NCBI GenBank assembly: GCA_026421185.1 | Contig: JAPKCH010000017.1 | Location: forward strand, 1-35,246 | DNA length: 35,246 bases | Source of the DNA: Dehalococcoidia bacterium | Lineage (GTDB): Bacteria > Chloroflexota > Dehalococcoidia > Lucifugimonadales > Lucifugimonadaceae | Direction: 5' to 3' | Part shown: positions 13,536 to 22,125 of the stretch, one piece after another | How positions within the stretch are numbered: the stretch's first letter is position 1 | Layout: each line of letters starts with the position of its first letter | The notes under the pieces: model-generated | Database searches by the model: none | What the model was told of the DNA's origin: nothing | What the model saw: only the letters and a program-made list of their open reading frames with translations | Position numbers and translations under genes: made by a program

Positions 13536-14711
13536 ATGAAGACCACTGGATTCCGAACACTGGTGCTGGGTACGCCCTGGCGAAACCTCACCTACTGCAT
13601 CATTGAAACCGACGAAGGAATAATCGGTGTAGGTGAAGCTCGTGTTCTGGGTAAAACCCACACGGTCATCGAGTACCTGAAAGACGCTCAGCGTCACTTC
13701 ATTGGACACGACCCGTTCGATATTGAAGCGCTTTACCGTCGAATGACTCTGTTGGACTTCGGTAAGCCGGGTGAGGTTGTCTACACAGGCTTGGCTCTCG
13801 TCGAGTTGGCGTTTTGGGACATCATCGGCAAGAAAACGGGCCAGCCTGTTTTCAAACTGCTTGGCGGTCAGGTCAAAGAGAAGATTCCTGCGTATGCAAA
13901 CGGTTGGTACACAGTCGAACGTACGCCTGAAGCATTCGCTGAGGCCGCTCGAAAAGTTGTTGACCGCGGTTACCGCGGAATGAAATTTGATCCGTTTGGT
14001 AACGGTGACATGGAGCTTGAACGTTCAGAATTCTTCCGGTCGCTTGATTTGATTGAAGCTGTCGCAAATGTAGCCGGTACGCGGGCGCAGATCATGATCG
14101 AAATGCACGGTCGGTTCGCACCAGTGCAGGCTCGTGAAATCGCTCGCCACATCGAGAAATACAACATCGGTTGGATCGAAGAACCGGTGCGACCTGGCGA
14201 TACTCCGGCGTTGCAGTCGGTAAGACAGCACACGTCGTTGCCGATCGCGACCGGAGAGCGACTGTATGGTGCTCCTGAGTTCCGAGAAATTTGGGGATCG
14301 GGGAACGTGGATGTGCTGCAGACCGATATTACTCAGTCGGGTGGTATTTTTGAGACGAAGAAGATCGCATCGACAGCCGAGACATACTCGATCATGGTTG
14401 CTCCGCACAACGTTGGTGGAATCGTGTCGACAATGGCTGCATTGCACCTTTGTCTCACACTACGAAATGCCAAGATACTTGAGCATTTCAATGACTTCGC
14501 CGATCCGCATGTGAAGAAGGCTGGAACTGGTTATCCCGAAGTAATCGATGGCTACTTCCCTGTGCCAACCAAGCCGGGTTGGGGCATCGAGCTTGATGAG
14601 GACTTCATTAAGGCGAACCCACCGAACTACACGTCAGCTGGAGTCATTGCTGATCCTGGCTTGAACATGTTCGAGAACGCCAACTGGGCGAAGCGCGGGC
14701 AGGATGACTAA
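13536..14711 (+). CDS. enolase-superfamily enzyme, mandelate racemase subgroup (galactonate dehydratase-like)
   Basis: This 391-residue protein has the N-terminal capping domain (1-about 120) and the modified TIM barrel of the MR/MLE family. Residues lining the active site are easy to place: MKFDPFG (149-155), E189 and H191 in IEMHGR, E215 in WIEEP, E241 in GERLYG, and H291 in APHNVGG. From memory, E. coli D-galactonate dehydratase uses Asp183, His185, Glu209, Glu235 and His285; the spacing here is identical with a constant offset of 6, with Asp replaced by Glu at the first metal ligand. An acid-sugar dehydratase role is therefore likely, but the substrate is open. A GAGAG purine run precedes the ATG. 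This fits a sugar-acid catabolic neighbourhood. Confidence 0.88.
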   Translation: MKTTGFRTLVLGTPWRNLTYCIIETDEGIIGVGEARVLGKTHTVIEYLKDAQRHFIGHDPFDIEALYRRMTLLDFGKPGEVVYTGLALVELAFWDIIGKKTGQPVFKLLGGQVKEKIPAYANGWYTVERTPEAFAEAARKVVDRGYRGMKFDPFGNGDMELERSEFFRSLDLIEAVANVAGTRAQIMIEMHGRFAPVQAREIARHIEKYNIGWIEEPVRPGDTPALQSVRQHTSLPIATGERLYGAPEFREIWGSGNVDVLQTDITQSGGIFETKKIASTAETYSIMVAPHNVGGIVSTMAALHLCLTLRNAKILEHFNDFADPHVKKAGTGYPEVIDGYFPVPTKPGWGIELDEDFIKANPPNYTSAGVIADPGLNMFENANWAKRGQDD

Positions 14712-16409: not shown

Positions 16410-19400
16410 CTAACCCCAATCCCTTGAATGGAAATCTGGAACCAACTCCGGGATAGGTCTGATTGTTTCGACGACGATGTTCATCGTTCCATCGCGTCGA
16501 GATACGGTGCCAGTGGTGAGTAATAGTGATTCTTTAATGACCAATTTCAGGCGCTGATAAAGGATTGGCCAGATGATTAAAGGCGAATGTCCGAACTCAT
16601 CCTCGAGCGTGATGAAAACAGTTTTCCCATTTGGTTTCTGACGCCTGACCACAAGTCCTGCTACCGAAATCCTATCTCCATTCGCGTAGTTTCTGACCTC
16701 TTCACTTCGTATGACTGTGGAGGGTAAATACGGTCTGATTTTCGACATTAAGTGACCCTGCGGATACAGGCCGGTTGCGGAGTACTCACCGATCATTCGA
16801 TGCCAACTCGATTCGTCTGGCAGCGCGACTACGTCCTGCTCAACTGGCATTTCAAAAGCTAGCTGGCGTGAACCGTCCTTTTTCTCTCCACGTGGTCGAT
16901 ATCGTAAACCCGACTCCCAGCGGAGATACCTGCGATCGGAAATCGTTGGCGGTTCCCGATTTGGGTCGGCTATTTCATCGAATTGATCTAGTGCACCTGC
17001 AGCAGATAGGTAGTCAATAATTTCTTGTTTCACCCCGGTTCTCGACATGAAATTTGCAAGCGAGAGAAATTTTCCTGCACCCTCACGTTCTTCAAGAATT
17101 GGTGTCGCTGTCGCAGCCCGTAACTTCACCACGTGTGTCAGACCCAACCGAAGCGCACCGTCTTCAATGACGGCCTTCACTCCGCTTAGGTTTACGTCTG
17201 GCCTGAGCACTTTGACTCCGTGCCTAACCGCATCCTCTTTTAACGTTTCAAGGTTGTAAAAACCCATAGGTTGGTTGTTGAACAGGCCGACGAAAAATTC
17301 GAGTGGCCAGTAGTGTTTGAGCCACGACATTTGGTATGCCGTTACGCCAAATGCAAAGGCATGCGCTTCTGGAAATTGGTACATGCCGTGGAACTTACTG
17401 AACACACGCTCGGCAGCATCAGGCGGGACGCCTTTTGCTAGAGCACCGGTGATGAATTTGCCTTCCCAAACAGCGATATTCCGTTCGTTGTTTCGACGTG
17501 TGAACGCACGCCGCATCTGATCGCCTTCTACAGCGCTCATACCACCGACATGCATTGCTAGTTCACTAAGTTGATCCTGGTAAAGTGGCACGCCGTAGGT
17601 TCTGCCCAGCGCTGGTTCTTCTAACGGATGGTCGAACTTCCAATTGGGATCCTTGCCCATGTGGCGCCTGATTAACAGCGTCACGCCATCGTTCACACCA
17701 ACACCGGGACGAACTACTCCGACTTCCCACGCCATCTCAGTCAGATTGCGTGGACGCAGACGTGTGACAGTCTGCATTTGTGCCGCCGATTCGATTTGGA
17801 AGACACCGATAGTGTCTGCGTTATGAATGTCGGTGTAGACAGCGTGATCTTCGAAGTCGATTCGAGATATATCAACTCTTTCTTCAGTCTGTTTTCTTAT
17901 AAGTTCCAGTGCTTCGGAAAGCTGTGAAAGCGCACCAAGAGCGAGAAAGTCTATCTTCACAAAGCCAGCATCTTCAGAGGCATTTTTGTCCCACTGGCAG
18001 ATGAATCGACCGTCGATGGCGCTACGTTGTAGTGGCACGGTTTCGGAGAGAGGACGTGCTGATAGGATCATTCCGCTGGGGTGCTGGGCAAGGTATTTTG
18101 GGAAGTGGTTGAGCTGCTGTGCGAGTTCGATGAGCATTTCCCACACCGGGACATCGACTCGGTCTTTGAATTCGGGAAGCTCTGACATTTCCTTTGCTAA
18201 AGTGGGAATTGAGCTATGAGCATCAAGTCGCTTGTTCAGTCGACCGAGATCATCATCTGCAATGCCTAAAGCTTTGCCCAGATCACGCACTGCGCCACGA
18301 ATTTTGTAAGTCGAAATCATCCCTGTTAACACAGCGCGTTCGTATCCCCAGCGTTCGTGAATTCTAAGAATTAGCTCGGTGCGGATTTCACGAGGGAAGT
18401 CGAGATCGATGTCGGGTGGCGATAGTTTTTCTCCATCGGTGGTTTCCGGTAGAAACCGATCTAGGCGAAGTCCGAACCTGAGCGGGTCGATGTGCGATAA
18501 CCCTGTGAGGTAGCCGATGAGCAGCGCCACCGATGAGCCACGACCTCGTCCCGGCGGGTTCTCTTCAATGGGAAGCCCAGGTTCAACGAATCCGAGGTCT
18601 TCTTGTACTTCACGGGCGATTCGTATGATGTCGTAGTACTGCAGCATAAAACCGACAAGACCGTGCTTTTCGAGAAGGTCGAATTCTTTGTCAAGTCGAG
18701 CTGTTACCTCTGGTGTGAGGCTATCGTATCGCCGCACGGCTGCTGCTTCGCAAATCTTACGTAGGTAGCTTGATTCGGTGTGCTCAGGTGGCAGGAAATC
18801 GTAGGATGGAAAGTCGTAAATAGCGTCGGATATGAGATCGAATTCACACCTGTCGGCGATCTTAACTGTGTTTGTTATTGCTTCTGGATGCTCACCAAAT
18901 AGAACACTCATTTCATCGGCTGATTTCAGGAAGAATTGATCGTTGGGTCGACGCTCTCGGTGGCTTGCTTCAAGCGTTTTTTTGTGTTTGATTGCAACCA
19001 ATGAATCGTTGAGTCGATGCCGGTCTTTAACGTGATAGTGGACGTTGTTGGTGGCGACTATTCCTATTCTGATTTCTCGTGCAATCGCCGCCATGCTGCG
19101 ATTGCGTTGAACATCACCCATAACAAGGTTTTGCTGTAATTCTAGGAAGAAGTTTTCTCTGCCAAATATTTCGGTATATCTCTCAGCTGTACGCTGAGCT
19201 GAATCGATATCTCCAGCAGCCACAAGCTCGGAAATTTCACCTCTACGGCAACCGGATAAGCAGATCACACCGTCGGTATGTTCAGCGAGCAGGGCAGGGT
19301 CGAGATGTGGGTCGTTGCGTTCCTCAGCATCGATGTGAGCACGTGTGGTGAGAAGCGATATGTTTCTATAGCCGGCGGCAGTTTCAGCAAGAAGAGTTAT

Positions 19401-20021
19401 GTGATGACGCTTGGAAGGATCGTATTCAGTATTAATAGGTTCGTTGAGGCCGCGTGCGAGAGTAATTTCAATGCCGATGATCGGCTTGACGCCGAGTTCT
19501 TTGGCTGCCTGAGTGAATTCCATGATTCCACTCACATTGTCGTGATCGGTGATGGCGAGAGCGTGAAGCCCTAGCTGTTTTGCAGCGAGTAGTAAGTCCC
19601 AAGCTTCCGAAGCTCCTTCTTGGAACGAGTAGTTGCTATGGGTGTGTAGCTCTGCGTAACGATGGGTGGGATTTTCTACGGCTGGATTGGGTTTGCTCGG
19701 ATTCGAGGTATTGGATACTTCGTTATCCGGCGTCTGTGAATTTCTTAAGTATTCGGCTTGCTCGTCATTCAGCCCTCCTGTGACACATCGACCGTCACTG
19801 ATCCAACCCGCGTGTTCAGGATTGGTGCTTCGCCTGTTTGGTGTGGTTTCTTTCGACTTTGAACTCCCTTGGCGACGCTGAGAATTCGTTTCGTAGCAAG
19901 GGTCAATTGTTACAGCGGTATCAAAGCTCAGCGAGACATCAGCCGTTCGTCCGGGTGAACCTACGACCTCTTTGGCAGGTACAACCTTTTCTATTTCTGA
20001 AAATTTATCCATTGAATCCAT
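16410..20021 (-). CDS. dnaE2: error-prone DNA polymerase III alpha subunit DnaE2 (ImuC)
   Basis: DnaE2/ImuC is the C-family polymerase that performs damage-induced mutagenic synthesis with ImuB. The PHP domain begins at YAELHTHSNYSF (122-133) with TDHDN at about 158-162. The polymerase core has GRGRGSSVA (491-499) and the catalytic PDIDLDF (536-542, aspartates 537 and 539 corresponding to Asp401/403 of E. coli DnaE from memory). A C-terminal OB-like segment, VAGLVVRRQKPNGKTVFITL, starts near 1120. The end, HSRDWG, resembles the SRDF[HR] tail of DnaE2 proteins, and the C-terminal tau-binding part of DnaE1 is missing. An N-terminal stretch of about 120 polar residues is not part of the family core; no better internal ATG exists, so the true start is uncertain (ATG 20012 or a GTG/TTG also possible). 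It is the third gene after imuB and the DUF6504-like gene. Confidence 0.92.
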   Translation of the reverse strand: MDSMDKFSEIEKVVPAKEVVGSPGRTADVSLSFDTAVTIDPCYETNSQRRQGSSKSKETTPNRRSTNPEHAGWISDGRCVTGGLNDEQAEYLRNSQTPDNEVSNTSNPSKPNPAVENPTHRYAELHTHSNYSFQEGASEAWDLLLAAKQLGLHALAITDHDNVSGIMEFTQAAKELGVKPIIGIEITLARGLNEPINTEYDPSKRHHITLLAETAAGYRNISLLTTRAHIDAEERNDPHLDPALLAEHTDGVICLSGCRRGEISELVAAGDIDSAQRTAERYTEIFGRENFFLELQQNLVMGDVQRNRSMAAIAREIRIGIVATNNVHYHVKDRHRLNDSLVAIKHKKTLEASHRERRPNDQFFLKSADEMSVLFGEHPEAITNTVKIADRCEFDLISDAIYDFPSYDFLPPEHTESSYLRKICEAAAVRRYDSLTPEVTARLDKEFDLLEKHGLVGFMLQYYDIIRIAREVQEDLGFVEPGLPIEENPPGRGRGSSVALLIGYLTGLSHIDPLRFGLRLDRFLPETTDGEKLSPPDIDLDFPREIRTELILRIHERWGYERAVLTGMISTYKIRGAVRDLGKALGIADDDLGRLNKRLDAHSSIPTLAKEMSELPEFKDRVDVPVWEMLIELAQQLNHFPKYLAQHPSGMILSARPLSETVPLQRSAIDGRFICQWDKNASEDAGFVKIDFLALGALSQLSEALELIRKQTEERVDISRIDFEDHAVYTDIHNADTIGVFQIESAAQMQTVTRLRPRNLTEMAWEVGVVRPGVGVNDGVTLLIRRHMGKDPNWKFDHPLEEPALGRTYGVPLYQDQLSELAMHVGGMSAVEGDQMRRAFTRRNNERNIAVWEGKFITGALAKGVPPDAAERVFSKFHGMYQFPEAHAFAFGVTAYQMSWLKHYWPLEFFVGLFNNQPMGFYNLETLKEDAVRHGVKVLRPDVNLSGVKAVIEDGALRLGLTHVVKLRAATATPILEEREGAGKFLSLANFMSRTGVKQEIIDYLSAAGALDQFDEIADPNREPPTISDRRYLRWESGLRYRPRGEKKDGSRQLAFEMPVEQDVVALPDESSWHRMIGEYSATGLYPQGHLMSKIRPYLPSTVIRSEEVRNYANGDRISVAGLVVRRQKPNGKTVFITLEDEFGHSPLIIWPILYQRLKLVIKESLLLTTGTVSRRDGTMNIVVETIRPIPELVPDFHSRDWG

Positions 20022-20136
20022 TGATCAGCTTTGACTAGCGCTATAAAAAGGTGAACGGGTGTTTGATGTCGATACAAACTCTCATAAGTTTTTTTTCGAT
20101 CTTGGTAAATAATTAGCTTTGGCCAAGTGCCAACTC

Positions 20137-20532
20137 TTAACCTGATTGTCGGTACCAACTGTTGGAGATGAGGTCGAGGTGGATAGTTATCTGCTGGCCA
20201 CTTTCGAGTCGTAGCACGTAGTAAAGGCGAGATATTTCGTCATCGGGACCACGCCACCACTCATCGTTTACCTTCCACAGGTTTTCTATCTCGACGACTC
20301 TCATCCACTTGCCATCTGAGACCAGTGCTGCCTTCGGGCTGCCTTGTTCACTATCCATAGAAAAGCTCGGATTCTTGCGACGTCTTGCGCTATGGCGGGC
20401 GCGTGGCGATTCGATGGCTGGCGGGACTTGTATTGAAGTCGGGTTGCCATTGGAGTCGGTTCGGATGTGAATGGTTCGAGGTGCGTTTAGAGGCTTGATC
20501 CCGCCTGAATGCTTGGGTGCTGTTTTAGTCAA
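20137..20532 (-). CDS. DUF6504-like small protein of the imu cassette
   Basis: This 131-residue protein starts at a TTG (20532) that overlaps the last 8 bases of imuB, so translation is probably coupled. The N-terminal 60 residues are basic and disordered-looking (RARHSARRRKNPS). The C-terminal 60 residues form a compact block with VVEIENLWKVNDEWWRGPDD, then SRLYYVLRLESGQQITIHLD and WYRQSG. This block matches my memory of the DUF6504 proteins that accompany imuB/dnaE2 in actinobacteria and other non-proteobacteria. The function is unknown; position suggests an accessory factor of the mutasome, filling the place where other lineages have imuA/imuA'. The family assignment is moderate, gene reality is good. 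Confidence 0.68.
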   Translation of the reverse strand: MTKTAPKHSGGIKPLNAPRTIHIRTDSNGNPTSIQVPPAIESPRARHSARRRKNPSFSMDSEQGSPKAALVSDGKWMRVVEIENLWKVNDEWWRGPDDEISRLYYVLRLESGQQITIHLDLISNSWYRQSG

Positions 20533-21916
20533 CTTTTACTGTCTCTTCATCGCTGCTGCAGCTGCTTAGTTGAACCAGTGCATATCTGCGTTCAGGGATT
20601 CTCGACCACGGCTCGAGTTCTTTCACTTGGTAGATAGGTGGAGCGATTCGCAAGCGTGACCTAAGCTGGCTAATCGTTTCCTGTAGATCGGTATCGCGCT
20701 TCACCTCCTTCCACATAGATTCCTGTCGTCCTGCCTCGCCAGTGATACCGGAAAGCGTTATTCGCATGTCTTCTAACGGACCGGGTATTTTAGTCATGTC
20801 CAACTTTGATTTGATCGCAAATAGCGCCTGGTGTTTACTTCCTGCGGGGTCTTTGAACGACACTCGCATGGTCCACGGAGCATGCTGGAAAACCTGTGAT
20901 TGGATATTCGCTTGACGAGCAAAACGACGTATAAACTGCGGTCTGCCGTATGCGCGCCCAAGCAAACTTTCGAGGGCTGTAACGATTGCTGCCATGCTCA
21001 CCGTGGGGTCAGGAAAGTCAAGATGTTCAGATACGCCGAGCACACTTCGCTTCGGCATTAACGGGCGGTTGTCGATTCCGTTTGCTAGTTCCCACGCTGC
21101 GCCGCCTGATTGTCCGAACTGAGCTTCCATGGGACCTCGGGGAATGTCGGCGATGTGACCCATAGTTGTTAGCCCGAAAGCGTGGAGCCGTTTAATGAGC
21201 GAGTATGGAACGGGTAGCGAATCTACAGGGAATTTATCGAGAAATCGTCCAGGCTCCCCCGTTATTTTTCGCCCACTATTTGATCGGCTCAAAAGCGATG
21301 CAGCGTACGCCAGCCACTTGTTGTCGCCAACACCGATACGTATGTCGAAATCGTCTACTGCGCCCGCAAGTAATCTCACTACATGCGCATCGTCACCATA
21401 AAGACCTTCTAGCCCCCATATGCCCAGGTAGGCAAGACCCGGAGCTGCTGCTTCGATATCGGGAACGATATGTTCGAGATTTTGGATGATTTCATCGAAC
21501 ATCAGTGCATATAACGCTGTGTCGGCTTCAATGATGAGCACGCCCTTGTGGCGTGATGTTGCCTCGATGATGGACATGCCGGGCATAACGTCGGTTAGAT
21601 CTGGTGATGCAGCTAGAACAACACGGGCAGAAAGCGAATTTTTTGCAGCTTTTGATGCCTGACCCAATCCCGGTCCGCTAGGCATATTCGTGAGATCTTC
21701 TGAAAGATCAAGCGCATTACCAGCAACGATTGCTGAATGATCGTGAAGCTCAGGCTTGCGTAGTACTTCAACCTGCCACGGAAAGTTGGGTACACGTAGG
21801 CAGGCAATGGGTCTGACACGCCCTTCTGGCAGCTGTGGAGTGGTACGTCGTGAGCTTTCTCGCTGCGAGTTGGTAGCGGCGGCTGGCGACTTAAGTTTGG
21901 TTATGGGTCGTCTCAT
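20525..21916 (-). CDS. imuB: ImuB-type Y-family DNA polymerase homologue (catalytically inactive)
   Basis: The 463-residue protein follows the Y-family fold: palm start PIACLRVPNFPWQ (36-48), a MPGMSIIEATSR block (111-122), AAPGLAYLGIWGLEGLYG (157-174), IRIGVGDNKWLAYAAS, a helix-hairpin-helix PVPYSLIKRLHAFGLTTMGH and a little-finger region ending about residue 400. In active Y polymerases the first block contains D-x-D and the third contains S-x-D-E. Here these are LRVPNF and AAPGLAYLG, with no acids, so polymerase activity is not expected, as for ImuB generally. ImuB acts as a hub linking DnaE2 to the sliding clamp; I did not find a clear clamp-binding Q-L-x-L-F motif. The start ATG lacks a strong ribosome-binding site. 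It is the first gene of imuB-DUF6504-dnaE2. Confidence 0.85.
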   Translation of the reverse strand: MRRPITKLKSPAAATNSQRESSRRTTPQLPEGRVRPIACLRVPNFPWQVEVLRKPELHDHSAIVAGNALDLSEDLTNMPSGPGLGQASKAAKNSLSARVVLAASPDLTDVMPGMSIIEATSRHKGVLIIEADTALYALMFDEIIQNLEHIVPDIEAAAPGLAYLGIWGLEGLYGDDAHVVRLLAGAVDDFDIRIGVGDNKWLAYAASLLSRSNSGRKITGEPGRFLDKFPVDSLPVPYSLIKRLHAFGLTTMGHIADIPRGPMEAQFGQSGGAAWELANGIDNRPLMPKRSVLGVSEHLDFPDPTVSMAAIVTALESLLGRAYGRPQFIRRFARQANIQSQVFQHAPWTMRVSFKDPAGSKHQALFAIKSKLDMTKIPGPLEDMRITLSGITGEAGRQESMWKEVKRDTDLQETISQLRSRLRIAPPIYQVKELEPWSRIPERRYALVQLSSCSSDEETVKVD

Positions 21917-22097
21917 AGATGGTGCTTTGAGTGATAGAGGGTGAAGGCCGTGAATAAGACCTAGAAATCAATCAGCGCGAACTTGAAATCAACGCTGTAA
22001 ATGAGACGAATCAGATCCGCATATTAATCCAAGTGATCCAACTTTTGGACTGTTTACGTTTCTTGTTTTTAAGAAGCAAATATCGTCTGAGGCACTG

Positions 22098-22125
22098 ATC
22101 ATAGAACATATGTTCTAAAAGTTAA
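22098..22125 (-). promoter_or_regulatory. candidate SOS promoter of the imu cassette
   Basis: On the minus strand TTAACT (-35, 22120-22125), a 16-base spacer and TATGAT (-10, 22098-22103) form a good sigma-70 promoter. A perfect palindrome occupies the spacer. Transcription would begin near 22090, leaving a 5' leader of roughly 170 bases before imuB at 21916. No small gene is visible in that leader. Confidence 0.6.
22103..22116. promoter_or_regulatory. LexA-box-like palindrome (GAAC-N4-GTTC)
   Basis: AGAACATATGTTCT is a perfect 14-base palindrome with the GAAC-N4-GTTC core of the LexA/DinR boxes of Firmicutes and Actinobacteria. It sits between the -35 and -10 elements of the promoter that points at imuB, where bound LexA would block RNA polymerase. 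Site identity is inferred from the motif; no lexA gene is in the window. Confidence 0.68.

Follow-up and report, generated by a model that had tools for sequence, protein, structure and literature searches.

Organization of the Operon

The stretch of DNA considered here (hereafter the window; 35,246 nucleotides from a marine Dehalococcoidia bacterium, contig JAPKCH010000017.1) carries three minus-strand genes that very probably encode a DnaE2 mutasome lacking ImuA, with ImuB split into two chains and expression repressed by LexA until DNA is damaged. The first is an imuB-like gene (20525-21916; 463 aa; Pfam IMS, E 4e-9) whose product, termed iPolY, is without the ImuB-C domain. It is followed by a small middle gene (20137-20532; 131 aa, TTG start), which by family homology encodes ImuB-C as a standalone protein, and by dnaE2 (16410-20021; 1203 aa), which encodes an error-prone C-family polymerase. 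The middle gene overlaps the end of imuB by 8 nt (TTGACTAA, 20525-20532, minus strand), and its stop lies 115 bp from dnaE2. A first-pass annotation had described three minus-strand genes and a TTG start overlapping the imuB stop by 8 bases, and both the open reading frames (ORFs) and the sequence bear this out. The same TTG at -8 recurs in four further loci of the window's genus.

Among named organisms, Candidatus Lucifugimonas marina JH1073 (SAR202, Chloroflexota; 89% DnaE2 identity) is the closest relative, and its complete genome (L031/L157) has the same split operon, the same 8-nt overlap and the same LexA-type box, described below. Relatives were sampled as 80 imuB loci fetched from the window's order; named genomes were located with DnaE2 as query, and named loci were assigned as fused or split by a length rule. 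Homologs of the middle protein occur in 98 of 197 genomes of the order. The 80 loci divide into 50 where the homolog has an ORF of its own, flanked by PolY and usually by DnaE2, and 30 where it forms the C-terminus of a PolY protein of ~500 aa. The first-pass annotation had named absence of the middle gene from relatives as grounds for giving up its reading; the gene is present and syntenic there. A decaying or misassembled imuB might mimic such a split, as frameshift errors can produce short overlapping frames, but the split is found in the complete JH1073 genome, at 50 loci of one order and in three phyla. This conservation leads to rejection of decay or an assembly artefact, which retains next to no probability.

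The Middle Protein and ImuB-C

The middle protein itself has no match in Pfam, NCBIfam or PHROGs, nor in a PDB sequence search, and a DUF6504 search of the window's own genome was likewise negative. Because the protein misses every Pfam model, its assignment as ImuB-C rests on its family, a point that counts against the assignment. A profile of 47 standalone family members matches the C-terminal domain of canonical ImuB (96.9%, E 1.7e-10), the reference being taken from plasmid-borne ImuA-ImuB-DnaE2 operons. Pfam DUF6504 falls on this same domain (residues 431-504 of Afipia ImuB) and is the sole family matched repeatedly, by 16 of 73 family members, although the matches are weak. The "DUF6504-like" label of the first-pass annotation holds for these relatives, through which its suggested profile search was resolved, and not for the middle protein directly.

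In an AlphaFold2 (AF2) model the middle protein forms a six-stranded beta barrel, with a predicted local distance difference test (pLDDT) score >90 in the core. Foldseek and VIA-align with the barrel gave no close PDB match (the best, at Z 5.3, were cystatin-like folds and of little meaning), and ImuB-C has likewise been published as having none. The C-terminal tryptophan, W126, is invariant in the family. Most of the stretch earlier described as a basic disordered N-terminus is a loop modeled at low confidence (about residues 40-70), inserted between barrel strands and special to the window's lineage. On the homology of its family, the middle protein is ImuB's own C-terminal beta-barrel domain, separately encoded, and not the new mutasome subunit that had been proposed. 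Standalone ImuB-C proteins have been known as a family since 2013 (PMC3765255).

The proposal had placed this protein, as an accessory subunit, in the position of ImuA'. imuA is indeed absent and the gene does lie within the operon; however, the family is homologous to ImuB-C and not to RecA or ImuA, no RecA-like Pfam match exists for the middle protein or its family, and the window's iPolY is without just that domain. Moreover, canonical systems carry both ImuB-C and ImuA, so ImuB-C cannot be an ImuA replacement. An accessory role in the ImuA' place is thus very improbable. With the candidate new subunit removed, the uncharacterized Pfam family DUF6504 gains a meaning, as ImuB-C.

iPolY, an ImuB without Its C-terminal Domain

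At the positions of the DinB catalytic acids D8, D103 and E104 the window's ImuB has R, G and L, as expected from the earlier statement that it lacks catalytic acids, and the first two of the three are missing in every split and fused relative scored. The AF2 model of iPolY has a Y-family fold and retrieves Y-family polymerases from the PDB. A profile built from 49 split iPolYs covers residues 3-392 of canonical ImuB and ends at the VPER motif (99.7%, E 4e-27), fused relatives match canonical ImuB over its full length (E 9e-31), and the window's imuB stops exactly where the ImuB-C domain would follow. Since iPolY matches residues 3-392 and the middle family matches the C-terminus, the two window genes are halves of one ImuB. 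Judged by these alignments, the break falls in the linker that joins the RecA-NT region to ImuB-C.

Toward its end, iPolY contains QESMW (20711-20725, minus strand), a probable beta-clamp binding motif by analogy with QLPLW of M. smegmatis ImuB (PMC11791113); its position and the pattern Q-x-[SL]-[LM]-[FWL] are kept in relatives. The motif is followed by a RecA-NT-like helix and strand (DLQETISQLRSRLRIAPPIYQV, 20615-20710, minus strand), modeled by AF2 as a helix at 403-422 and a strand at 429-434; both are co-linear with the corresponding stretch of canonical ImuB. The profile match of this tail to the RecA N-terminus is weak and at most suggestive (E 0.015-0.03; the best of 12 stretches compared, with the next one close), a point that counts against the overall reading. 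A second, more distant PolY-like ORF lies near the mutasome operon in two relatives (L059, 4227-5297; L060, 8259-9605).

A Probable Nested Start for ImuB-C in Relatives

Next in iPolY comes the motif EPWSRIPERR (20585-20614, minus strand), whose codons hold the ImuB-C start in overlap-type relatives and are closed to it in the window. The nested start was followed across Chloroflexota, Thermomicrobiota and Gemmatimonadota in a non-redundant set of 66 split loci (L041-L063, L160-L228 and others); as these rows are related, the counts are not fully independent. The potential start, an NTG built from the Pro-Trp codons of the motif, precedes the end of PolY's stop codon by exactly 52 nt or, in rare cases, 55. 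The Pro codon CCC, which would give CTG, is used at one of the 66 split loci, where an ATG is present at -4 instead, vs 17 of 26 fused genes. A Shine-Dalgarno core stands at -18 to -3 from the NTG in 58/66 split loci vs 8/26 fused genes, the background rate being 18% of stretches in the same genes. The arginine four codons ahead of Pro is AGG in 17/23 cases vs ~11% in general (p 1.5e-12).

These overlaps could also be read as sites of programmed -1 frameshifting, which would yield a fused ImuB and make the split only apparent. The same relative frame of ImuB-C, with a 52-nt overlap, at 41 of the 50 split loci of the window's order would suit this reading. However, the avoidance of CCC and the enrichment of the Shine-Dalgarno core argue for selection on a start codon in the overlap, the window's genus shows differing frames and gaps of up to 150 nt, and inspection of the overlaps by eye revealed no slippery heptamer. 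Frameshifting is therefore quite unlikely, and independent initiation of ImuB-C inside the iPolY gene is preferred. In the window's genus the nested frame runs into a stop after five codons (GTG GTC GAG AAT CCC TGA) and ImuB-C starts with the TTG at -8; as read from these codons, the nested start is lost there.

Probable Regulation by LexA

The operon is preceded by a perfect GAAC-N4-GTTC palindrome, a LexA-type box (GAACATATGTTC, 22104-22115), 188 nt before the imuB ATG and in the spacer between the hexamers TTAACT (-35-like, 22120-22125, minus strand) and TATGAT (-10-like, 22098-22103, minus strand). The first-pass annotation had located the palindrome inside a promoter: the palindrome is perfect and kept upstream of imuB in relatives, whereas the hexamer pair alone is at chance level. 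The 53 kb of imuB-upstream DNA from the 80 loci hold 42 GAAC-N4-GTTC sites vs 0 for a reversed control pattern, and ~2 would be expected at the rate of the window's own genome (78 per 2.13 Mb). Related boxes occur at lexA, with an exact or one-mismatch box in 26 of 28 promoters, typically GAACATTAGTGC; one-mismatch sites there number 38 vs 5 in the control. At recA the window's genome has GAACACTTGTGC (GAAC-N4-GTGC), a form common to members of its genus and family. Two observations weigh against LexA control: lexA of the window's genome has two boxes, both one mismatch off, and no exact box, and recA promoters beyond the window's family are mostly without a box. Overall, the comparison of promoters leaves LexA control of the operon well supported, in keeping with the SOS-type control supposed earlier, and the operon is probably inducible by DNA damage.

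The window's own genome (L132) also carries two GAAC-N4-GTTC sites 19 nt apart (C40:5736-5766). They lie upstream of an ORF that is at most 246 aa long and points away from a cinA-like gene, and they mark a possible further LexA target.

Absence of ImuA and the Probable Place of RecA

The cassette had been described as lacking imuA, and ImuA is not found in the window's genome (96.6% complete) either; this genome has one RecA and one RadA-like protein. No RecA-like gene lies within 5 kb at any of the 80 loci. No ImuA was detected among 46 genomes, of which 30 have fused ImuB: RecA and ImuA profiles retrieved essentially one RecA and weak unrelated matches, the ImuA profile being sensitive enough to detect RecA itself at about 1e-16. 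RecA probably fills the place of ImuA, as is also proposed in PMC6511836 and PMC12926913. On a Thermomicrobium roseum plasmid (L136, 1703-7168), a RecA-like gene stands in one operon with DnaE2 and a reduced ImuB-like protein of 416 aa that is without a DUF6504 match.

The DnaE2 Polymerase

The domains recognized in the window's DnaE2 are PHP, polymerase, finger, HhH and OB, and the protein's best NCBIfam match is error-prone DNA polymerase (E 1e-232). The catalytic motifs PDIDLDF and VKIDFLALG are intact when aligned to solved Pol III alpha, which upholds the active site reported in the first pass. About 120 residues precede the PHP domain (19665-20021); this extension is partly kept in close relatives (L036, L038) and missing in most of the order. 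In tree analysis, the window's DnaE2 stands apart from three reference DnaE2s that served as outgroup.

History of ImuB Fusion

Mapped on the DnaE2 tree, the fused or split state requires three changes, and forcing the fused rows into one clade is rejected (approximately unbiased test, p-AU 0.003). With reference DnaE2s as the root of a second DnaE2 set, every one of the earliest branches (Gemmatimonadota, Thermomicrobiota and other Chloroflexota) has the split form, and the fused form is nested in at least two places; both are quick trees with long outgroup branches, built on data from metagenome-assembled genomes. Fused ImuB adjoins DnaE2 in genomes without detectable ImuA (L057, L066, L075, L081, L083-L108; L179-L197). 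We therefore lean toward a history in which a split ImuB, with ImuB-C started by its own Shine-Dalgarno sequence inside the iPolY gene, was ancestral in the DnaE2 clade of Chloroflexota, Thermomicrobiota and Gemmatimonadota, and later gave rise to ImuB-like fusions on two or three occasions without ImuA. If true, fusion is independent of ImuA, a state that the main text of PMC12926913 does not include in its 11 module types. Repeated fusion fits the published origin of ImuB from PolY and ImuB-C, and adds that ImuA is not required. The clade thus offers a natural test of that origin, with the halves apart, overlapping and fused, all without ImuA.

Host and Neighborhood

Cultured Ca. Lucifugimonas marina JH1073 and JH545 are slow growers that light inhibits or kills (PMC10444878); in these strains, damage induction of a split, ImuA-less mutasome would be directly measurable. 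Elsewhere in the window, an ORF at 13536-14711 resembles, by eye, the enolase superfamily (mandelate racemase type), in line with the many enolase paralogs of SAR202 (PMC10444878).

Proposed Mechanism and Comparison with Known Systems

In the proposed mechanism, LexA at the GAAC-N4-GTTC box would keep the operon repressed as long as DNA is undamaged. iPolY would then serve as a non-catalytic scaffold on the sliding clamp and may bind RecA, in the place of ImuA, via its RecA-NT-like tail. ImuB-C would dock on the PHP domain of DnaE2, a contact taken from published models of ImuA-ImuB-DnaE2, and the two chains would jointly do the job of one ImuB chain elsewhere. The resulting complex would place DnaE2, on the clamp, at a primer end that is stalled and coated with RecA, leading to error-prone bypass and mutagenesis.

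The operon is a further case, here in SAR202, of the described split-ImuB DnaE2 mutasome. An operon of iPolY, ImuB-C and DnaE2 without imuA was reported for Kyrpidia tusciae in 2019 (PMC6511836), and PMC12926913 described the same split arrangement without ImuA in 2026, as "DnaE2X". As in Kyrpidia and the DnaE2X-iPolY-ImuBC-RecA system, the genome is without ImuA, and a single operon of the window encodes a dead PolY, DnaE2 and a standalone ImuB-C. The RecA-NT-like tail of iPolY has its counterpart there as well, although the window's direct RecA match is weak. Unlike these systems, the window has a SAR202 host, a 120-aa extension before the DnaE2 PHP domain and a loop insert in ImuB-C. Its ImuB-C has the E-WW, R-x-Y[YF] and C-terminal W motifs and the beta barrel of the ImuB-C/DUF6504 family (PF20114; PMC3765255), but it has diverged beyond the reach of the Pfam model and bears an insert of ~35 residues. 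The canonical ImuA-ImuB-DnaE2 systems of mycobacteria and proteobacteria likewise combine a dead PolY carrying a probable clamp motif, ImuB-C and DnaE2 in an SOS-type operon, but the window is without ImuA and has ImuB as two chains. The Geobacter lexA-imuB-C-polY operon, cited in PMC6511836, also pairs a standalone ImuB-C with a Y-family protein; its PolY, however, is active and DnaE2 is missing. The conserved box, the nested ImuB-C start and the apparent repeated ImuA-less fusion are what the present comparative analysis adds to the papers cited here.

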